Below, piece after piece: positions 2,138 through 41,561 of a DNA stretch of 44,686 nucleotides. Position numbers and translations under genes: made by a program. This DNA is from a virus. Under the pieces are notes generated by a model. It had not been told where the DNA came from, searched no databases, and saw nothing but the letters and a program-made list of their open reading frames with translations. The DNA is taken from positions 1 to 44,686 of IMG/VR virus record IMGVR_UViG_3300025620_000012; one strand, 5' to 3'. Each line of letters starts with the position of its first letter. Position 1 is the first letter of the stretch.

Positions 2138-2743
2138 ATGGCAACAAAAACAACAACGGGAAAAAAGACAACATTCAAAACATTAGCAGCACTTAATGTT
2201 AAGGATAGATTAGAAAAGAAAGGAAGGTTTGATTACTTATCTTGGGCATATGCCTGGGCTATGGTAAAAGACCAATACCCTGATGCAAACCGAAAGGTAT
2301 ATGAGTCAGAGGCAACTGAGTTGAACTTCTTTACAGATGGCAATACAGGTTATGTAAAGGTTGGTGTAACAATAGAAGGTGTAGAGCATATCGACTACCT
2401 ACCTATAATGGGACACAACAACCAATCACTTAGTGTGGATAAGATCACATCATTTGCAGTAAACAAGACCATACAACGTAGTACGGTTAAGGCTATTGCT
2501 ATGCATGGATTGGGATTATCTTTATGGGCAGGCGAAGATTTAGTAGACATTAGTGAGGCAGCACCTGCTGTTAAGCAAGAGTCTAAGCCTACACTTAAGA
2601 AGACCAGTGATAAGTGGAATGATGTAGTAAACTATGTTAAGGCAAACAACACTAAGTCGTTGTCTTCAATAGTTAAGACACTAGAAACTAAATACATTAT
2701 ACCTACAGCAATCAAAAAAGAATTATCAGCCTATGTCAAGTAA
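2138..2743 (+). CDS. DUF1071-type single-strand annealing protein (recombinase)
   Basis: Residues 13-130 match the DUF1071/SSAP pattern: FKTLAALNVKDRLEKK, then FDYLSWAYAWAMVKDQYPDA, a strand pair ending YLPIMGHNNQSL, and NKTIQRSTVKAIAMHGLGL with the closing LWAGEDL. The family anneals complementary single strands during phage recombination, like Red-beta or RecT. The tail (145-201) is lysine-rich, probably for nucleic-acid or partner contact. The next gene, which overlaps by 11 bases, encodes the expected partner exonuclease. Length (about 200 aa) is normal for the family. High confidence. Confidence 0.85.
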   Translation: MATKTTTGKKTTFKTLAALNVKDRLEKKGRFDYLSWAYAWAMVKDQYPDANRKVYESEATELNFFTDGNTGYVKVGVTIEGVEHIDYLPIMGHNNQSLSVDKITSFAVNKTIQRSTVKAIAMHGLGLSLWAGEDLVDISEAAPAVKQESKPTLKKTSDKWNDVVNYVKANNTKSLSSIVKTLETKYIIPTAIKKELSAYVK

Positions 2744-12093: not shown

Positions 12094-12184
12094 AGAGCAA
12101 ATACTAAAAGAGAAGTTGAAAGATAAACCCAACTTCTCTTTGATTAGAAAATTACAACAGTTAATTGATAAGGTTAAAAATTAA
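12077..12184 (+). CDS. Small hypothetical protein (35 aa), last gene of the left arm
   Basis: ATG 12077 (a second ATG follows at 12080) to TAA 12182-12184. Basic helical sequence MEQIKEQILKEKLKDKP then FSLIRKLQQLIDKVKN. It overlaps the DUF3310 gene by 17 bases, and its stop codon overlaps by 3 bases the stop of the opposing 2500-aa gene. Function unknown. Confidence 0.5.
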   Translation: MMEQIKEQILKEKLKDKPNFSLIRKLQQLIDKVKN

Positions 12185-15100
12185 AAAGATTTAGGATTAA
12201 ACGATTTTCCACTTTTCTTTTTTCCTTTCTCATTACCAAAAGAAGCTGGTGAAAAAGATTTATCATTTTTACTTTTGCTATTTGTTTTTTCAACTTTACG
12301 ATCCTTACCTTGATCTATTCTTTTTAGTTGCTTTGCTTCATTATCTATCATTTTTTGAGAAGGATTTTTAATACCTCTCTGATTTAGTACAGCTTCAGCT
12401 TCTACAATATAATCAACTTTCTCTTCTATTTCTCTTGATTTACCTATATCCTTAAAAGCTCTTTCAGCAATATATCCTACTTCACTTGAATTTAAAACAG
12501 GGACACCAATTAAATGCATAGCATAAGCCATAGTCGTCATTTTCAAGGCGTTTAATTTTTCAGGGTCTATTTCAGCTTTACTTTCTCTACCCATAAAAAC
12601 AGTGGTCTTTTCTCCTGTAACAATTGTTTTAATCATATCAGCAAGTATTACTGCTTTTTTTGCACCGATTCCTAATGTACCTAGTTGGTCAATTATTTTT
12701 TTATCTGTCTTTGCAAAGAACTGAAATGGATTATCCTCATCGTCTTGAAACATAGACATCAATCCGTTTATTTTATTTAAACTTTCGTCATTTAAAATAG
12801 GTATTGGAACAAGAATATCTGCTAATGCATTTCCAGTTCTACCTATTAACCTTTGATTAAACTCTTTCTCTCTTTTTTCTTCTCTTGCTCTTTTATTAGC
12901 ATATCTGTTTAAATTCGGGTCTTCTTCTTCTCCTGATATTAATCTTGCGGCAGCAGCTAATGTTTGAGTTATTCCTAAACCAATAGCATTAAACATTGCT
13001 GTTTCTACACCTAAACCTCCCAATGACCTAAGCGCTCTAGTCTTATCACCTGGAAGAGCAGTTGGGTTATTAGTTAAAGTATTTATATCTGAATACATTC
13101 TTGTTTTTTGATTTAACAAAAAGTTTGCAAAAGGAAATAATGTTTTACGAACCATTTGAGAACCAAAGTTTTGATTAGTAAACAAGTCTCCTTGAAGGTC
13201 TTGGTCAGATGTATTTTGTTGCCTATCCACTTGTTGCTGTGCATACTGTGCAGCTTTTTTGTCTAATGGTTTAGACCAATCAATATTAGTAGTATCTCCT
13301 CCATCTTTTTTTACTTGCTGAATATAATAAGCAATAAAAGAAGCTCTTGCTGTCTGAACATCTGGATACACCAAGAAAGCTTCAAGTGTCTTTTTATTTA
13401 TTTTATCAGCAGCATCAATTACTCTACCTCCTTTTGTCTGTGCTTTCTTTTTAATTCTACTATCAGCATTTTCAATATCTGATTGAGATTGTATTCCCCT
13501 GTTAGCAATAGGTAAGCCTGAATTGTCTATAGCCTTTTGAACCTCAGCATCAAAAATTAACTTAGATCCTTTTAATGTATTGCTGAGACCTGCATTAAAC
13601 ATTGTGTTAAAAATAGGAACTATTTGTTTTACAAACTGAGTTGGCCCACCTAAAACTCTAGACACACCTAATGTAGCAACCTTATTCAAACGATTTAAAG
13701 CTCTTTTTGTTGAACCATCAACATATTTTTTACCTCGTTTAGAATCTACATAGCTATTTATTCTTTCATTAATTATTTCTTTTGCTGATTCATTTGTAAA
13801 AACTTCGTTAAAAGCTTTTGACTCTCTAGCTCCTTTCACTTGTTGTATAGAAGGGGCTGTATATATATCAGTTAAAGCAGCTTTATAATTACTCATATTC
13901 TGAGCATCAAAACTTAAGTTTAATACATCTCCTGTCTCAAGAGAACCAGGTTTAGTAGCTTCTTTTAAAACACCTGTTTTTTTGTCGTAAGCGCTTTTTC
14001 TTTTATTTCCTTCAGGATTAAAAACAGGTTGTGTTATATCTACATCTTCTGCTTTTGGTTGCTTTACTTTTTGAATGTTTCTAGGAGTATAGTTAGTATC
14101 TTTTCCTAAATTCTTGTTATATACATTCAAGGACGTATCAGCTAATTCATTATATTTTTTAGCCCAGATTTCCGTAACATATTTTACTCCATCTAAATTT
14201 GCAGGGTCTGCTTTACTTTCAACGTCCTCTATAGAGTTAGAGTCTTTCAAAAGCTTATCATATTGAGCTTTAACAATCTCACCTTTTTTAACTTTTAACT
14301 TGTCTCCTGAAGCCATAAGTCTCTCATAAGTTTGCTGAATAAGTTTCTTACTCTTTTCAAATTCCTTTTGTTCTTTCCCTGGTGTAAACCTCCTTACATC
14401 TGCTAATATACCTCTTTGAGTATCATTGGATTCGTCAAAGTATATACCATCTTGCATTTTCTTTTTTGCAAATTTATCTGCATAATCTTTCTCTGTATTA
14501 GCTGCTTCTTTTTGAGCTTTTGCGCTACCGTTTATTATTCCATCAAGCCCTAAAGCCTCCATAACCATTCTCGCCTTCTGTTGAGACTTAAATGTAAGTT
14601 CAAAGACATTAGGTAAAGTGGATATTTGTTTATTCCAAAACTTACCTAAGCCAAATAATGATTTGTTTTCAGTATTTTTAATTCCTTTATTTTTTAAACG
14701 AGTTATTTTAGTATTACCAACTTGCTGCATTAGAGAAGCCTCCATTCCACCCGTAGATTGGTTAAGCTCAAAATTAACTATCGAATCTAATGCTTCCAAT
14801 TTTTGCTTGGTAGTCATTAGACTTAAGTCCATGTTTAAAAAATTATTGATTAAAGTTTTTTGAGTCTTGGTAACCTTTATGTCTCCAGACTCTATAGCTC
14901 CTTTTATATTTATCTTAGTGTTTTTAAAAGCGTTATTTGCTGCTTTATCAATTGCGTTCTTTTTATCCTTAAGAATCTGTGCATCTGTTTCAGAAGTATT
15001 TGTTGAACCATCTACCTCATACAGTATCTCTTTCATTTGGTCAAGAGTTAAGTCCCCTGGTTCTAGCCCTGTCAATTCTTGAAATGACTCTTTGGCTAAC

Positions 15101-18100
15101 TCATAGTTTCTTTCTGATTCTAATTCAGTTTCTTTTTTTGAATACTCCTCAATTTTTTTAATATCAAAAGGCTTACTTACTTTAAGTTCCCCCTTAGATG
15201 GTTTCTTAGTTGGTGTAAGACCATTACTAATTTCAGATGCTTTTTCTAAATATGTATCAATATCGTTTACATTGCTTGGATTTACTTGAGTAAATTTCTT
15301 TGCAGCGTCAGACAGTCCAGCTTCTTTACCTTTTAATTTATTCTTAATAGATTTTTGAAGTTTTTTAGCCTTATCTAGCTTATTAGAATACTCAGCATCA
15401 TTCATTGCTCTTGTAGTAAAATCTATTACGTCTTGAACTTTCTTGGCGTTATATAAATTTACATTAGAAACTTTTTTAAGTAATGAGTTTGCTTTTTTAG
15501 TTGTAATATTACCTGCTTTCAGAACTAAATCTATAGCCCCCTGTAATCCTTTTCTTCTTTTGTTTACATCGTTTTTAGCATTTCTAGCAACCCTAGCTTC
15601 CTTCTGAAGATCTTTCTTCATTGCCGAATAGTCGCTCTTTACTTTAATAGTCTTAGGCTTTCCTTTTATTTTTGTAGAGGCTATTATAGATTTATAAGTA
15701 TTAGCTGTTACTGTCTGACTGTTTGTCTTTCCTATAGCATCTACTTCAGCTTTAACTGCTCCTTCAGATTTAGCGTACAAGTCTATTTCTGCATTTGAAA
15801 ATTCCGTATCACCCCTAGCTATTTTTAAAGCTAAGGCTCTTTCTTTAGATTGTGTTTTGGGTTGTTGTTTTTTCTTTTGAGCAACCGCATTATCTATTGC
15901 TTCTTTATTTTCTGCGTAAAACTGAATAGCATCTTCAGAAAAAGATTCTTGATTTCCTCCTTCAACAATACGATTTGCAAATGACTCTATTTTATTGTTC
16001 ACACTCATATCTCCCTCTGTTGAGGTAGGTTCTGTTAACTGTTCAACATCTGTCTGCGTAGTCGTGTCGCTAGGCTTATCGGTTTGCGTTTCACCTTCTT
16101 CGATTTGCGTGTCGGTAGTGACTTGCTCAACGTCTCCTTCTCCCACTTGTTGCAATTCCACTTCGGAGTCTTTCCCTCCTTCTGTGCTTGTTGGAGCATC
16201 TGGTAGCACTTGCTCCTCTGTGCTTGGCTTTGAAATGGCATCTTTTCCTTTTTTAATTAATACTGGCAACTCTACATCAATAGTGTATGTTTTTTTTCCT
16301 CTCTTAGTTCCTTGTCTTTTTATTTTTACCTCAATACCTGGATAAGCTTTTTTTATTTTTTCAACTTCAGCTTCAGCTTTAGCTTTATCATCAGTCTTAA
16401 AAGGATCATAAGCAGCTTGACCTTTCTCTTCTACAGATTGTTTTGTTGCATCACTATATTTTGTGGTATTAGTAACAACGTTACCATCGGCATCGGTCTC
16501 TACATCTAAATTAGATTTATTGAAAGTCCTAAGTCCACCCTCAGAAATAGTAGTCGTTTCAACAACTCTTGCGCCATCAGGTAATGTAGCATCAGCAGAT
16601 GTAATCATATTCTTAAACGCACCACCTGTAGACTCCATTTTTGCTGAAAACTTATTTGTTGGCCTTCCGTTTTCATAAACCCTAACATATCCGACAAAGT
16701 TTTCTTTGTTTTTAGAAGTTATAATAACATCTAAAATACCTGTCTCTGGATTTACATAAGTTGCTGTTGATACCCCTTCTTTATCAAGACTTGTAACGTT
16801 TGATATGTTTGCTTCTCCTTTAGGATTAGAGGGAGTTACTAACCTTTTGTCTGTATGATATTCTCTAAGTCGGTCTTTTGGAACTTGCTTTTCTGTGCTT
16901 GGCTTTGAAATGGCATCTTCTTTTTGTTTTGTTAATTCTTCTTGAACTTGTAATTCGTCTTTTTTATATAGAGCATCTAGTTGCTGGTCAACAGCCGCTA
17001 TCTGTTTATCAATTCTAGCTTTACCTGGGCCTTCTAGTCCCTGTTTTTTGTTTATTAAATTCTGTCTTTGAGTTAATAAATCAGATGCAGGTTGTAAGTT
17101 TTCAGAAACTTTTATAGTCCCTTGAGTTTTTAACTCAGCTGACTGCATATTGTAAATTTCTGTATATGCATTTGAAGCCTCTTTTTCAGTCAAAGAACCT
17201 TCTTTAACTAAAACATCTAATGTAGATTGTAAATCTTTAACATTTGCTGCTGCAAGCCTAACTAAGTTAGACCTTCTATTTCCTGACAATAAATTTTTAG
17301 CACCCAAACCAGAGGTAGCTCCTACGGTCATTACTACAGTTTCCATTATACCTGCCTTTGTAATTTTGTCACTTAAAACTTCGTTTCCAATATGTCTATT
17401 CACCAAATGGTTTATACCCTTTTCAGAAAAATAAACTGGAAGCTCTTCTATAAAAAGTTCTTTAGCGTTTTCTTTTAACAAACCCTTGCCCTTATCTACA
17501 AGTTGTTTTACTGTGAATTTTTTACCTTCTTTTAATGCTAGGTTTTTAATCTGGTCTTTAATTCCTGTAAAACCTGTTAGTAATTTTTGATTACCACCTG
17601 CTAATCCAGAGAATATACCATCTAAAGTAGATATTGCCTGACCTGCATTAACAGCTATATTCATAGCTTCTTTTTCAGACATACCTGAAGCTACTAGCTG
17701 AGACCTTACGTCCTCCACGTTCCCTGTAATACCACTTGCAAAAGAAGTAATTCCCATTCCTAGACCAGCTCCTTTAGGGCCTTTAAATCCTAGTTTCTTT
17801 GTTACTTTTCCTGATGTTCTAATTAAGCCGTATAAGTGTACAAGCATGCCTACTCCTCCTTGAGTTACAGATCCTGCTGTCCAATTAGTTACAGTCTCTG
17901 TAACATCTTTAGATAGTGTTTGTATTTCTTTTATTTTTTCAGGAGAAATAATCCCATCCATTCTTATGTTCGTATTTGCATCATATACTGTTCCATTTTC
18001 ATCAACAATATATTGTTTACCCATACTTAAAACTGGCTTTCCGTCTAAAAAAGCAGATCTTTTTACTGCGCCAGTTGTGATATCAAGAGTCTCCTTACTT

Positions 18101-19683
18101 TGGGTAAACATTTCTTCAAGGCTTTTTAAAACACCTTTATTATCAAATTTATCATCTCCCTTCCCTATAGTTGCAATCCTTTGGTCAAAAAAAGCAGGTA
18201 TAGAAGCGAAAAAATCAAGACCAAAACCAGCCAAACTATTTCCTGCAACAGCAAGTAACTCAACTAATCCTTGACCTCCTTCAGCTGCTCCACCTTCCTG
18301 AGCGGCCTCATACATTGCTTTTCTTCTTCTTAAGTCAGTATCCTCTGTGTATTTTGTAAGCACAGGAAAATCTTTAATAGTAGTAGAAATGCTTTCAACT
18401 TTTGCGTAAAATTCTTTGGTTAATTCTTTTCCCTCATTTTTTAATTCTTTTATCTGTTTAGGGTCAGAGGTTAAATCTATTTTCGCTTGAATTTGATTTA
18501 ATCTCTTACTAATTTGATTAAGTTGTGCCGTCTTGTATGATTGAACTTTTTCATAATAATTTTTTTGTTCAAAGTACTCATCACCTTCATCATCTGTAAG
18601 AAGTTTCTTCATCCACTTGTATACACCAGTTTCGTTCCTAGTGTTTTTCTTTTCCCACTTTAAATAATCTGTTACATCACCACCATCATTTTTAATAAGG
18701 CTTGTTAAAAATGCGTTAGCATTTCCAACCTCTCCTTCATCAAGATCAACATCTGAGTAATTTGGAGTTTGAACATCTTGAGTTGCAATTTCGTATGTTT
18801 CAACGGCTTCTAATAATTCTGGGCTAAGTTCTGATTCTTTCTTAAATTCTTTTTGACCTGTTTCTGGATTAATAAATCCATATTCTTTTTCTGGTGTGAC
18901 ATTTACGTTTATACCTTCTTTATCAAAATCAATAGTGTTTAAAACATTTCCTGAGTTCTCTTCTTTATAAGCCAAATATCCTGAATCTAATAGCAGCTTG
19001 TTTTTTTTATTAGAATCATATGAAGGCTTCCAGCTTCCTTTTCCATATGCTAATGCTGATTTTTCATCTTTACCAAACTCTATAACTTCACCTCTTTTCT
19101 TAGCTTCTTCATATACAGGCTCCCAGTTTTGTTTTGCCTCTTCAGACATGTCAACAAAACTTCCATCTTCATTTTGAAATACTGTAGGGAATGAAAACCA
19201 ATTACCTTGACCATCTGTTTCGGTCTTCATTTTATGAGTAGACACACTTCCGTCTTCATTTTTAAGTGTACCTGACCTAGACGGTGCTTCAGGAATTAAA
19301 GTTTCAATCTCTTCTTCTACGACAGGAAATTCAACAAATGGTGCTAAGTCACCATTATCATCTTGCACTAAAGGTATTACAGCTACTTCATCTTGCTCTT
19401 CTAAAGAATCCGAAGAGCCAGGAGTTGTTTCCGTTTCTGTAATGGATTCCGTAACTTCCTCTTGACCATCTGAAGGAGTATCGACTTGATTTTTTTTTTC
19501 AGCCCAAGCAGATGTAAATACATCAAGAGTGGTTTCTGAGCTTATTATTTTTTCGTCAACACCTTGCTTATATAGGGCTTCCTGTATAGAAGAGTCTGAT
19601 TGAGAAAATTGCTCAAAGCTAGTTTCTTTACTTAACAATCCCTGTTCAATATAACTTTCGTATAGAGCTTTTAATTTATCCAT
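12181..19683 (-). CDS. Giant internal virion / DNA ejection protein (2500 aa)
   Basis: Last gene of the late arm. Residues 136-219 carry a module common in podophage ejection proteins (SRSGTLKNEDGSVSTHKMK, then NWFSFPTVFQ, ending RGEVIEFG...GSWK). Hydrophobic stretches near 470-500 (VELLAVAGNSLAGFGLDFFASI) and 608-623 could contact the host membrane. An acidic disordered region (about 1140-1240) separates the N- and C-terminal halves; the C-terminal half is long, charged and helical and ends in a basic tail (KKSGKSFNPKSF). No lytic transglycosylase motif is obvious. By position and size it is the analogue of T7 gp16: carried inside the capsid and ejected ahead of the DNA. It contains the repeat pair at 16892/16217 and the +1-frame ORF at 16035-16241. 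Confidence 0.75.
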   Translation of the reverse strand: MDKLKALYESYIEQGLLSKETSFEQFSQSDSSIQEALYKQGVDEKIISSETTLDVFTSAWAEKKNQVDTPSDGQEEVTESITETETTPGSSDSLEEQDEVAVIPLVQDDNGDLAPFVEFPVVEEEIETLIPEAPSRSGTLKNEDGSVSTHKMKTETDGQGNWFSFPTVFQNEDGSFVDMSEEAKQNWEPVYEEAKKRGEVIEFGKDEKSALAYGKGSWKPSYDSNKKNKLLLDSGYLAYKEENSGNVLNTIDFDKEGINVNVTPEKEYGFINPETGQKEFKKESELSPELLEAVETYEIATQDVQTPNYSDVDLDEGEVGNANAFLTSLIKNDGGDVTDYLKWEKKNTRNETGVYKWMKKLLTDDEGDEYFEQKNYYEKVQSYKTAQLNQISKRLNQIQAKIDLTSDPKQIKELKNEGKELTKEFYAKVESISTTIKDFPVLTKYTEDTDLRRRKAMYEAAQEGGAAEGGQGLVELLAVAGNSLAGFGLDFFASIPAFFDQRIATIGKGDDKFDNKGVLKSLEEMFTQSKETLDITTGAVKRSAFLDGKPVLSMGKQYIVDENGTVYDANTNIRMDGIISPEKIKEIQTLSKDVTETVTNWTAGSVTQGGVGMLVHLYGLIRTSGKVTKKLGFKGPKGAGLGMGITSFASGITGNVEDVRSQLVASGMSEKEAMNIAVNAGQAISTLDGIFSGLAGGNQKLLTGFTGIKDQIKNLALKEGKKFTVKQLVDKGKGLLKENAKELFIEELPVYFSEKGINHLVNRHIGNEVLSDKITKAGIMETVVMTVGATSGLGAKNLLSGNRRSNLVRLAAANVKDLQSTLDVLVKEGSLTEKEASNAYTEIYNMQSAELKTQGTIKVSENLQPASDLLTQRQNLINKKQGLEGPGKARIDKQIAAVDQQLDALYKKDELQVQEELTKQKEDAISKPSTEKQVPKDRLREYHTDKRLVTPSNPKGEANISNVTSLDKEGVSTATYVNPETGILDVIITSKNKENFVGYVRVYENGRPTNKFSAKMESTGGAFKNMITSADATLPDGARVVETTTISEGGLRTFNKSNLDVETDADGNVVTNTTKYSDATKQSVEEKGQAAYDPFKTDDKAKAEAEVEKIKKAYPGIEVKIKRQGTKRGKKTYTIDVELPVLIKKGKDAISKPSTEEQVLPDAPTSTEGGKDSEVELQQVGEGDVEQVTTDTQIEEGETQTDKPSDTTTQTDVEQLTEPTSTEGDMSVNNKIESFANRIVEGGNQESFSEDAIQFYAENKEAIDNAVAQKKKQQPKTQSKERALALKIARGDTEFSNAEIDLYAKSEGAVKAEVDAIGKTNSQTVTANTYKSIIASTKIKGKPKTIKVKSDYSAMKKDLQKEARVARNAKNDVNKRRKGLQGAIDLVLKAGNITTKKANSLLKKVSNVNLYNAKKVQDVIDFTTRAMNDAEYSNKLDKAKKLQKSIKNKLKGKEAGLSDAAKKFTQVNPSNVNDIDTYLEKASEISNGLTPTKKPSKGELKVSKPFDIKKIEEYSKKETELESERNYELAKESFQELTGLEPGDLTLDQMKEILYEVDGSTNTSETDAQILKDKKNAIDKAANNAFKNTKINIKGAIESGDIKVTKTQKTLINNFLNMDLSLMTTKQKLEALDSIVNFELNQSTGGMEASLMQQVGNTKITRLKNKGIKNTENKSLFGLGKFWNKQISTLPNVFELTFKSQQKARMVMEALGLDGIINGSAKAQKEAANTEKDYADKFAKKKMQDGIYFDESNDTQRGILADVRRFTPGKEQKEFEKSKKLIQQTYERLMASGDKLKVKKGEIVKAQYDKLLKDSNSIEDVESKADPANLDGVKYVTEIWAKKYNELADTSLNVYNKNLGKDTNYTPRNIQKVKQPKAEDVDITQPVFNPEGNKRKSAYDKKTGVLKEATKPGSLETGDVLNLSFDAQNMSNYKAALTDIYTAPSIQQVKGARESKAFNEVFTNESAKEIINERINSYVDSKRGKKYVDGSTKRALNRLNKVATLGVSRVLGGPTQFVKQIVPIFNTMFNAGLSNTLKGSKLIFDAEVQKAIDNSGLPIANRGIQSQSDIENADSRIKKKAQTKGGRVIDAADKINKKTLEAFLVYPDVQTARASFIAYYIQQVKKDGGDTTNIDWSKPLDKKAAQYAQQQVDRQQNTSDQDLQGDLFTNQNFGSQMVRKTLFPFANFLLNQKTRMYSDINTLTNNPTALPGDKTRALRSLGGLGVETAMFNAIGLGITQTLAAAARLISGEEEDPNLNRYANKRAREEKREKEFNQRLIGRTGNALADILVPIPILNDESLNKINGLMSMFQDDEDNPFQFFAKTDKKIIDQLGTLGIGAKKAVILADMIKTIVTGEKTTVFMGRESKAEIDPEKLNALKMTTMAYAMHLIGVPVLNSSEVGYIAERAFKDIGKSREIEEKVDYIVEAEAVLNQRGIKNPSQKMIDNEAKQLKRIDQGKDRKVEKTNSKSKNDKSFSPASFGNEKGKKKSGKSFNPKSF
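16035..16241 (-). CDS. Candidate overprinted gene inside the ejection protein gene (68 aa, +1 frame)
   Basis: Within the 2500-aa gene the +1 frame is open for 68 codons from an ATG at 16241. The product starts MPFQSQAQRSKCYQ, then WNC (28-30), KWEKET (32-37), LP (42-43) and a basic end. This follows, from memory, a small phage protein type of the form MPF[KQ]S[KQ]AQR-x-x-CY...W-x-C-x-x-W...T...LP. An AAAGGA stretch lies just upstream of the ATG. The region is GC-richer than its surroundings, and the main frame here is low-complexity and acidic with unusual ACG/GAC/AGC codons. Either it is translated, or it is a captured small gene now read out of frame as linker. Expression is unproven. Confidence 0.4.
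   Translation of the reverse strand: MPFQSQAQRSKCYQMLQQAQKEGKTPKWNCNKWEKETLSKSLPTRKSKKVKRKPISLATRLRRQMLNS
16217..16244 (-). repeat. 28-bp direct repeat, copy 2
   Basis: Identical to 16892-16919. In the main frame both copies encode DAISKPSTE; in the +1 frame both encode MPFQSQAQ. The copies are 675 bases apart (225 codons), keeping the frame. Beyond the 28 bases, a few more positions agree, so the original duplicated unit was slightly longer. Confidence 0.9.
16892..16919 (-). repeat. 28-bp direct repeat, copy 1
   Basis: First copy in transcription order. The +1 frame from its ATG (16916) closes after 25 codons, unlike copy 2, which stays open for 68. Both copies fall at edges of disordered linkers of the ejection protein. 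Confidence 0.9.
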
Positions 19684-39132: not shown

Positions 39133-39696
39133 TTATATAGCTAAAGTTATTTGATGGTCAAACATTCTATACAGTTTTTCTCCATCTACCATAAACTCAT
39201 ATTCGCTTTCAGGCTTAAAAGAAACTTTGTCTCCATTGTTAACACCCTTACTAACTAGGTATTTGTTTGAGTATTTAACTAGACCCATTAACGGTTCTTC
39301 TTCTTCGTGGCTTTTTAGGTAGTAGTCTTCTTTTTTTACAGGCTTAATCATACAATATTTAGAATGTGAATTCCAAGTATCATTATTTTTGTACATAAAA
39401 AATTGATCGTTGTCTATAAAAAATAAATCATCTTTAAAAAAACTTTTTCCGCTTTTCTCTCTACCCTTCATGTCATTATAATATTTAAAAACATTATGAT
39501 GAACTAAAAGAGTATCTCCTATTTGAACAGGACCATTATAGTTTATTGGAGTCTCAATGACTATTGCGTATCTGTTAGATGCAGTGTGGTCTTCTTTTGA
39601 AGTGCTGGTAATAAAGTCTATGTTACCAATCTTTTTTGTGTTGTCGTATCTCCTATCGTCTTTAGGTTTTACTATAAAATAAAAAGGTGATTTCAT
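39133..39696 (-). CDS. GroES-like (Cpn10-fold) protein
   Basis: 187 aa. The beta-barrel pattern of Cpn10 is visible: YFIVKPKDDRRY (N-terminal strand), RYAIVIETPINYNGPVQIGDTLLVHHNVF (the V-x-x-GD-x-V core), and later YLVSKGVNNGDKVSFKPESEYEFMVDGEKLYRMFDHQI as the final strands. A large insertion (about 80-140) lies in the middle. A phage cochaperonin-like protein could assist the host GroEL in folding capsid or tail proteins (as T4 gp31). It lies in the packaging operon. Confidence 0.55.
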   Translation of the reverse strand: MKSPFYFIVKPKDDRRYDNTKKIGNIDFITSTSKEDHTASNRYAIVIETPINYNGPVQIGDTLLVHHNVFKYYNDMKGREKSGKSFFKDDLFFIDNDQFFMYKNNDTWNSHSKYCMIKPVKKEDYYLKSHEEEEPLMGLVKYSNKYLVSKGVNNGDKVSFKPESEYEFMVDGEKLYRMFDHQITLAI

Positions 39697-39926
39697 TCAA
39701 AATATATATTGTACTCAATTGAAACAGGCATAGAAGAATTAAATTCTTTCCAAAGAAATATTTCTCCTTTTTTGTTTTCAATAAAAATAGTTAGTGATTG
39801 ATTTGATTCATTTTTCTTAATTAAATGAATCATATGAGTACCACCAAATATCTCTTGATCTACAATATAATGCATAGCTCCTGACTTATAATCAGCACCT
39901 ATTGATATTTTTCTAATTTGTTCCAT
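39693..39926 (-). CDS. Conserved small phage protein (77 aa)
   Basis: Start KISIGADYKSGAMHYIVDQEIFGGTHMIHLI resembles a small conserved protein found beside terminase genes in Bacteroidota phages (function unknown). Mixed beta strands, no catalytic residues apparent. It is the first gene after the 39943 promoter and overlaps the GroES-like gene by 4 bases. Confidence 0.6.
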   Translation of the reverse strand: MEQIRKISIGADYKSGAMHYIVDQEIFGGTHMIHLIKKNESNQSLTIFIENKKGEIFLWKEFNSSMPVSIEYNIYFE

Positions 39927-39942
39927 TTAATTTAATTTACAA

Positions 39943-39950
39943 CAAATATA
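39943..39950 (-). promoter_or_regulatory. -7 promoter box TATATTTG for the packaging operon
   Basis: Exact TAnnTTTG on the - strand, 16 bases before the ATG at 39926, immediately after the terminator at 39954-39984. It would express the packaging and portal genes. Confidence 0.7.
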
Positions 39951-39953
39951 AAC

Positions 39954-39984
39954 AAAAAAAAATACCTCCGAATCAACAGAGGTA
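39954..39984 (-). terminator. Intrinsic terminator after the receptor-binding genes and RNA element
   Basis: Stem TACCTC (39963-39968) with GAGGTA (39979-39984), a 10-base loop, and nine A on the + strand (39954-39962), i.e. a T9-run for the - strand. It ends the 41585-promoted unit, and the RNA element at 39996-40074 lies directly upstream. Confidence 0.85.
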
Positions 39985-39995
39985 CTTTGTTAGAA

Positions 39996-40074
39996 GCAAG
40001 CAGCAAACCATCCCTTGGACTATCCAAGGAGCGAACCACGCCTTAGACTAGCTAAGGCTCAAACCACTGCTTGC
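39996..40074 (-). ncRNA. Structured RNA element: three-way junction with two duplicated hairpins
   Basis: On the - strand: outer stem GCAAGCAG (40067-40074) pairs with CTGCTTGC (39996-40003), 8 bp perfect. Inside, hairpin 1 pairs 40052-40058 with 40040-40046 (7 bp, 5-base loop); hairpin 2 pairs 40023-40029 with 40013-40019 (7 bp, 3-base loop). The three linkers (40059-40066, 40030-40039, 40004-40012) share the core TGGTT[TC]G. The two hairpins are tandem copies of a 28-base unit in which a G-C pair has become A-T on both sides, a compensatory change within one molecule. It lies between the 331-aa gene (stop 40082) and the terminator. It may be a 3'-UTR-derived RNA, or a packaging-type recognition site. 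Confidence 0.7.
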
Positions 40075-40081
40075 ACTTATG

Positions 40082-41077
40082 TTAACTTACAGTTCTTGAA
40101 ATCATAGAACTATGTCCCTGAGCTATTTGATAGGCCTGTATTTCTGATGTCCCACTCAGGTCGCTCTGGTATTGAAATGTAATTGCGTCTGATAAATCCC
40201 CCATTATGTATGGAGTTTGTTTATTTGTATTTGTCCAAGTAGGGTTCGGTATTCCTATAGCAAACTTAAAATATGCTTTTCTCGACTTGCTTGTGCTATC
40301 CCAAGGAGTATTTGTATTAAACCTATTTTGTGCAGTCCCTGATTTTAACAAGCACCTAAAACCTAGGTCGTTATTAATAGTTACAGGAAACGAAGTAAAC
40401 GGCGTTAAAAGGTCACCTTTATCAAATAGAAATTGCAGGGGATTTATAGGCACTTCTACATAAGCCGTGCTGTTTACAGTTTTAAAGTCTGTAATAGTTA
40501 CCCCTGGAGTGACCACTGGGTTTTGAAATTTTTGCACGTAGTTCAAATCCCCGTTAAAATTCCATTCTGTAGTTATTGGGAATAATTCACTGGGATTGCC
40601 TTGATCGTCAACATAGTTTTGAGGTGATGAACACCAATTACTTCCTGGAAAATTTGTTTGTATATATTGGCCATTCAAGTGGGAGGGGTGAACATAATTT
40701 CCGCGCTTAAACGGGGTTCCACCATCGGACGTATTTGATGGTCTATATCTAAATAAGAAAAGCCTCGGGTTATTATCTAACCATCTTTTGTCGAACTGGG
40801 TAGGGACACTAATACACAACGCCCTTTGTTTTAATGATGGGCCAGAGGCTTGATATGGATTTGGACTACCTGACTTATACACCCACATTTGAGGTGTAGG
40901 TATTTGTATACCGCCAACATAAGAAGAATTTCCAATAAACTCTGCTATATCATCAAATTTAAATGTTTTTGTTTGCAAAGGGGTTGGAGATGAACTTCCA
41001 TGTGTTCCAATAACATAATCATCTCCATTTACTGGATTTTGATTAGGGTAACTATTTGTGTTACTTATTTTTGCCAT
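40082..41077 (-). CDS. Receptor-binding/tail spike-type protein (331 aa)
   Basis: The first ~50 residues (MAKISNTNSYPNQN then DDYVIGTHG, LQTKTFKFDDIAEF) are homologous to those of the upstream neighbour (28 of 50 identical by eye), so they are likely a virion-attachment domain. The remaining ~280 residues are aromatic-, Asn- and Pro-rich beta sequence with no recognised family, presumably the receptor-binding region. The start is one base after the upstream stop. Base composition of the distal part appears more GC-rich and less A/T-biased in codons, consistent with exchange of receptor modules. Confidence 0.6.
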   Translation of the reverse strand: MAKISNTNSYPNQNPVNGDDYVIGTHGSSSPTPLQTKTFKFDDIAEFIGNSSYVGGIQIPTPQMWVYKSGSPNPYQASGPSLKQRALCISVPTQFDKRWLDNNPRLFLFRYRPSNTSDGGTPFKRGNYVHPSHLNGQYIQTNFPGSNWCSSPQNYVDDQGNPSELFPITTEWNFNGDLNYVQKFQNPVVTPGVTITDFKTVNSTAYVEVPINPLQFLFDKGDLLTPFTSFPVTINNDLGFRCLLKSGTAQNRFNTNTPWDSTSKSRKAYFKFAIGIPNPTWTNTNKQTPYIMGDLSDAITFQYQSDLSGTSEIQAYQIAQGHSSMISRTVS

Positions 41078-41078
41078 A

Positions 41079-41561
41079 CTATGATACTGCTTGTATTACA
41101 ATCCAATTTGAACCATCAGACCAAAATTGCGCTCCGTTGTAAGGTTTGTTTACATTATAAAAACTAGCACCATTTACAGTTTCTGCTCCAGGTCCTAATA
41201 CATGTATTTTATCACTTGCATTTAGAGTTCCATCTGTTACAAGTCTTATTATTCTATAAGGAGTACTTGTTGCTGATGGTAGTGTTAATTCGTAAGTTCC
41301 ATTACTACCTGTCCAAGTGGCGTATATTGTGTTTTTGCTTGAAGAGTAAGAGGAAGAACCTCCTGAACTAGCGGTTACTAAAAAAGGATTAGAAGTATCT
41401 ACAGTTGTTTGATTTTGAACAAACTCAGCAATATCAGCGAGCGTAAATACTTTTGTTTGTAAAGAAGGGTTAGTAGCTACACCATCTGTACCAATTAAAT
41501 AATCTTTAGCATTAACATCTGTTTTTACAGGATATGATGAAATGTTACTAATCTTTGCCAT
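41079..41561 (-). CDS. Tail fibre/appendage protein (160 aa), paralogue of the 331-aa protein
   Basis: N-terminal ~50 residues share MAKISN, SYP, DY-x-IGT, LQTK and DIAEF with the downstream gene. After a Ser/Gly/Thr linker, residues 65-160 form a small beta domain (TIYATWTGSNGTYELTLPS...RIIRLVTDGTLNASDKIHVLG...GAQFWSDGSNWIVIQ), as in phage fibre tip or head-fibre repeats. The two proteins probably bind the same virion site but present different tips. Promoter at 41585. Confidence 0.6.
   Translation of the reverse strand: MAKISNISSYPVKTDVNAKDYLIGTDGVATNPSLQTKVFTLADIAEFVQNQTTVDTSNPFLVTASSGGSSSYSSSKNTIYATWTGSNGTYELTLPSATSTPYRIIRLVTDGTLNASDKIHVLGPGAETVNGASFYNVNKPYNGAQFWSDGSNWIVIQAVS

Follow-up and report, generated by a model that had tools for sequence, protein, structure and literature searches.

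What is a folded RNA doing between the stop codon of a phage tail gene and the terminator that directly follows it? The locus lies on the minus strand of a 44.7-kb virus record, the whole of which is the window analysed here. TerL, portal and GroES-like proteins of the window match PHROG families, and the known phages related to it have Flavobacterium, Cellulophaga, Tenacibaculum and Maribacter as hosts. An earlier note had pointed to a duplicated hairpin within an outer stem and had suggested several roles, from a 3′-UTR RNA to a packaging signal. The features of the locus are as follows.

40082-41077, minus strand: rbp331, a 331-aa putative receptor-binding/tail gene in tail-cluster position, whose 3′ UTR holds the element
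40074-39996, minus strand: the complete RNA element of 79 nt, a three-way junction whose 5′ end is at 40074, as defined by sequence, folding, relatives and covariation
40066-40074, minus strand: arm P1, 5′ strand, GCAAGCAGT, pairing with 40004-39996
40061-40065, minus strand: linker 1, GGTTT
40038-40060, minus strand: arm P2, GAGCCTTAG, loop CTAGT, CTAAGGCGT, 8 of 9 positions paired
40033-40037, minus strand: linker 2, GGTTC
40010-40032, minus strand: arm P3, GCTCCTTGG, loop ATAGT, CCAAGGGAT, 8 of 9 positions paired
40005-40009, minus strand: linker 3, GGTTT
39996-40004, minus strand: arm P1, 3′ strand, GCTGCTTGC
39959-39988, minus strand: intrinsic terminator directly 3′ of the element
39943-39950, minus strand: TATATTTG, which lies between the terminator and p77 and resembles the Bacteroidota -7 box (TAnnTTTG)
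39693-39926, minus strand: p77, a 77-aa gene downstream, first gene of the GroES-like/TerL/portal side and unlinked to the element

The element has three arms of nine positions each; its hairpin loops and its three linkers are all 5 nt long. The outer stem is formed by GCAAGCAG and CTGCTTGC and has the 8 bp first described, or nine if the T.G pair at the junction is counted; this last pair of P1 is C-G in the relative L408. The two enclosed hairpins are tandem 28-nt copies, as is seen in the sequence, and the internal compensation claimed for them is present: hairpin 1 has A-T (40053/40045) where hairpin 2 has G-C (40025/40017). TGGTT[TC]G does occur three times, with the linkers proper now refined to 5 nt, and each linker of the window element has a closing pair, Y-G or G-Y, beside it. 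The terminator has its own stem at 39988-39959 and is distinct from the element, as the earlier note held; a terminator is found at the same site in relatives that have no element (L140, L202). The earlier observation is confirmed, and it is stronger than first claimed.

Folding of the window sequence against shuffles gives z = -3.1 for the element alone and -3.8 with the terminator. A sequence-blind descriptor has its sole match in the window at the element locus, and no match in 30 dinucleotide-shuffled windows. Elements of the same architecture but very different sequence are present in about 57 viral contigs. Structure was assessed on a sample termed A3, the elements of 23 distinct relatives in a 27-pair junction; MAFFT misaligns the two clades when they are aligned together, and the register was taken from the junction anatomy. 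Standard pairs make up 94.3% of the junction in A3 (71.8 in shuffles), 22 of the 27 pairs have changed on both sides (13.6 in shuffles), and the covariation score is 0.584, compared with 0.154 (sd 0.017) in shuffles. None of 500 shuffles matches A3 on any structure measure, a count that is not a probability; the contigs are partly near-duplicates. Slid controls reach at most 51% paired, and RNAalifold recovers the three-way junction unaided.

It should be pointed out that minimum-energy prediction often favours an extended rod, which is a point against the junction. On A3, however, the rod has fewer pairs (90.5%) and a lower covariation score (0.505), and the junction equals or exceeds it in each individual sequence. 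Two other folds are weaker, i.e. mini-hairpins that close over the linkers (78.9%) and tandem hairpins with the linkers as loops (74.9%). The element was also considered as the coding sequence of a short peptide; the start codon is absent in L409, and the covariation speaks against this.

The changes between close relatives can be followed pair by pair. One P3 pair is C-G in the window and in L050, an A.G mismatch in L406 and A-T in L113, and a P1 pair that is A-T in the window is G-C in L408. The element was said to stand or fall with homologues whose stems vary in a compensated way; homologues were found, and they show compensatory changes. Other phages have the same architecture at the same site, with AATTA or AGTTA linkers and YTNGN loops. 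In both clades each of the three arms has nine pair positions. Every arm of the AATTA/AGTTA clade has, at one and the same position, an additional 1-nt bulge (A3 columns 20, 49 and 78), and thus the pseudo-symmetry is threefold throughout. Kinship between the clades is suggested by position, architecture and a homologous flanking gene. Model R1, from the CARTTAG clade, the larger one, gives the window element a weak score (13.4 bits, E = 0.0016 in 171 bp with filters off) that is below detection in larger searches, with the correct register.

The linkers evolve in a particular way. Among relatives they are AATTA, AGTTA, TGTAT or GGTTC; they differ between clades and are mostly uniform inside an element. 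Three identical linkers are found in 19 of 23 elements, where 7.3 are expected if linkers are shuffled between elements. Exceptions to strict identity include L154, which came from a sequence-blind scan of loci (TGTAT/TGTAT/TGTAA), and L493 (GGTTC/GGTTC/GGTTA); L487 and L488 fit the junction more poorly. Linker bases 1, 4 and 5 are nearly invariant in the 23 sequences, while the stems there vary strongly. The tandem unit is 28-29 nt, and the repeat copies are more alike inside one element than between phages.

The element acts as RNA. Non-Watson-Crick cells in the alignment comprise 44 G.U and 2 A.C, compared with 56.5 and 28.3 in shuffles. Retention of G.U together with purging of A.C points to an RNA on the tail-gene strand, since neither a DNA function nor the opposite strand would give that pattern. 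Selection is strand-specific and at the RNA level, and on this alignment evidence the element is taken to function as RNA in tail-gene orientation and not as DNA.

The gene upstream is assigned from position and a shared domain. The neighbours of rbp331 are tail, holin and M15-peptidase genes, and its N-terminal ~54 aa are common to the product of 41079-41561 (minus strand), which matches the baseplate protein of PHROG 20556; a receptor-binding or tail protein is therefore the putative assignment. The AlphaFold model is of low confidence (pLDDT 48) and gave no fold match, and no homologue of the tail gene was found in cultured phages. Beyond the ~54-aa domain 40082-41077 and 41079-41561 are unlike, as in exchangeable tail-fibre cassettes, and other relatives have the same tail-gene N-terminus with other C-terminal parts. 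Elsewhere in the window, 2138-2743 (plus strand) encodes a single-strand annealing protein of the Sak type (PF06378), which might mediate the exchange of tail cassettes, and 12181-19683 (minus strand) is an open reading frame of 2500 aa, possibly a large virion protein.

Directly downstream of the terminator, all 28 element loci that came from the first search carry the TATATTTG box. From its place before p77, a promoter of its own is probable for the packaging side, and the p77/GroES-like/TerL unit is probably a separate transcription unit. In the cultured phage MW202828, only 4 nt precede the p77 homologue. Near relatives have also kept the GroES-like gene (PHROG 13932; 39133-39696, minus strand) between p77 and the terminase gene.

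The linkage of the element is to the tail gene. It follows the stop codon of the putative receptor-binding gene at a distance of a few bases up to some tens, and precedes the terminator. A tail-gene alignment search yielded 48 loci, and the element is directly 3′ of the gene in all 47 that have the 3′ flank; the remaining locus ends early. The gene upstream of the L154 element is a homologue of 37% identity that this search had missed, and a final search added nine contigs with distant homologues, all nine with the element, which makes ten contigs beyond the 47 loci. With one uniform descriptor applied to distinct regions upstream of p77, the element is found in 34/34 that have a full-length tail-gene homologue (scores of at least 25.3), and in 1/109 contexts without the tail gene. 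The exception, L113 (29.3; next best 24.7), has kept the element though rbp331 is lost. In the same contig, at 1442-2313, the element is directly behind a 160-aa tail gene.

Searches that did not depend on the tail gene add little elsewhere. A pattern scan found 34 viral stretches, of which the only one outside the tail-gene loci already known (L453) is a chance match. Seven pattern matches in bacterial genome contigs gave no score with the covariance model, and a scan for triple TGGTTYG found chiefly coding repeats and only a handful of real loci.

Element and tail gene also diverge together. Element distances correlate with those of the tail gene (Mantel r = 0.81) and far less with those of p77 on the packaging side (r = 0.23); partial Mantel values are 0.80 and 0.14. 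The element is a module that is co-inherited and co-diverges with the tail gene. In L318 (1-400), an L206-type element is joined to an L307-type p77, i.e. there has been recombination between element/terminator and p77.

The 3′-UTR option of the earlier note is supported by the RNA-level structure between stop codon and terminator on the same strand. We give an even chance to the explanation that the element is a 3′-UTR RNA module of the putative receptor-binding gene, most likely cis-acting, which protects or tunes its mRNA. The RNA directly past the stop codon would fold into the pseudo-threefold junction, the tail-gene transcript would end at the adjacent terminator, and the module would be inherited with the gene. 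Co-transcription with the tail gene is presumed here, as is cis action after transcription with protection or tuning of the message as its effect. The three repeated junction strands may be the surface that is recognised. It can be held against this that a terminator hairpin should be enough to protect the 3′ end, and the presence of another conserved structure then calls for an added explanation. L113 is an exception to strict linkage.

This raises the question of whether the threefold symmetry has a threefold partner. A threefold protein, which may be the tail protein itself, might bind the element, with three subunits on the three junction strands; the effect would possibly be translational feedback, or trimer assembly nucleated on its own mRNA. 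Symmetry not only of the linkers and loops but also of the length of the arms and of the bulge favours such a ligand, as do the clade-specific yet internally identical linkers and the linkage and co-divergence with the tail gene. However, the trimeric state of the tail protein is an assumption, with a structural model of low confidence, no RNA-binding domain was recognised in the tail protein, and L113 has the element without the gene. In addition, homogenisation of tandem repeats accounts for identical linkers with no need of a ligand. A threefold ligand is a live idea, given that the linkers change together as the gene diverges, and homogenisation is the plain alternative; we regard the ligand as unlikely. 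The further proposal, that the symmetry itself is selected, with linkers drifting in concert with the tail gene and a threefold protein, possibly the gene's own trimer, binding the 3′ UTR to control or seed assembly, is speculative and somewhat less likely.

Homogenisation leads to a simpler stabiliser of the mRNA 3′ end that binds no ligand. Repeat slippage or gene conversion could keep the copies alike and the linkers identical, and the linkers would be spacers. The tandem 28-29-nt unit, the greater likeness of copies within an element and the strong folding are in keeping with this. Near-invariance of linker bases 1, 4 and 5 despite strongly varying stems is not what spacers would lead one to expect, one hairpin would suffice for the purpose, and this reading does not explain why the element is strictly linked to a single gene family. 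A ligand-free stabiliser seems improbable to us.

More doubtful is a small RNA that is derived from the 3′ UTR by cleavage upstream of the junction and acts in trans, as a regulator, a protein sponge or an antitoxin-like decoy. A stable structure with a terminator is the usual shape of 3′-UTR small RNAs, the single-stranded motif is repeated, and phages can have repeat RNAs that imitate type III antitoxins (PMC3475682). The pseudo-ToxI of phi-TE resembles the element as phage-encoded, homogenised tandem repeats, but its units are 36-nt pseudoknots in variable number (PMC3475682), whereas those of the element are 28-29 nt, always three and paired as a three-way junction. A ToxI-like antitoxin RNA was rejected on the fixed three units, the nested covarying junction and the lack of an Rfam match. 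Against a small RNA in general, no conserved promoter box was found directly upstream, the linkers vary between clades, unlike an antisense seed, the unit number is always exactly three, and no Rfam family matches.

A site in the DNA at which tail-gene cassettes are exchanged, such as a cruciform or attC-like recombination site, is very unlikely. The site does border a variable tail gene, and neighbouring genes are shuffled in L113, L202 and L318, but a DNA function would not predict 44 G.U against 2 A.C, and the element is single-copy with no linked recombinase. The asymmetry disfavours a cruciform or recombination site generally.

To the pRNA-like packaging RNA or terminase-read pac/cos site put forward in the earlier note we give practically no credence: the element is ~1 kb from TerL, but the site is without it in L202, L203, L140 and L123, in which TerL is 88-99.6% identical over the available part, element divergence does not follow the packaging-side gene, and G.U greatly exceeds A.C (44:2). 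In L202, a TerL part of 268 residues is 99.6% identical to that of the window, yet the site has no element; this absence and a divergence that follows the tail gene, not p77, exclude a general packaging role. The phi29-type pRNA is likewise phage-encoded with a three-way junction, but the element is ~80-90 nt, has a pseudo-threefold tandem repeat and is unlinked to packaging genes.

The statement that the element belongs to no known RNA class is borne out. Rfam 15 gave no family at the gathering threshold in the window, nothing relevant with an E-value threshold, and no family match for 10 loci of the other clade; no matching description was found in the literature on phage 3′-UTR three-way junctions. 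Structured 3′-UTR RNAs that precede intrinsic terminators are similar in position, sense strand and RNA-level structure. The element differs from such mRNA stabilisers and 3′-UTR sRNAs in its pseudo-threefold junction, its three near-identical 5-nt linkers and its obligate linkage to one phage gene family, and no known family matches it. GOLLD RNAs are associated with phages and prophages. These RNAs and ROOL, both ornate RNAs, are hundreds of nucleotides long and owe their symmetry to several molecules, whereas the symmetry of the element is inside one 80-90-nt RNA. GOLLD and ROOL are described as structured RNAs of bacteria, large in size, which assemble into symmetric homo-oligomers (PMC12286853).

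The element represents a phage family of structured RNA that is both new and well supported; to our knowledge, few 3′-UTR RNAs of phages are known. The tie of the family to one putative host-recognition gene family has no exception in the gene-bearing contexts examined, and the element is a metagenome marker for the tail-gene module of uncultured Bacteroidota viruses. Its sequence has changed greatly while the internal threefold symmetry has persisted, which makes one question open to direct test: is the message recognised by the very tail protein that it encodes, acting as a trimer, or by some other threefold partner?
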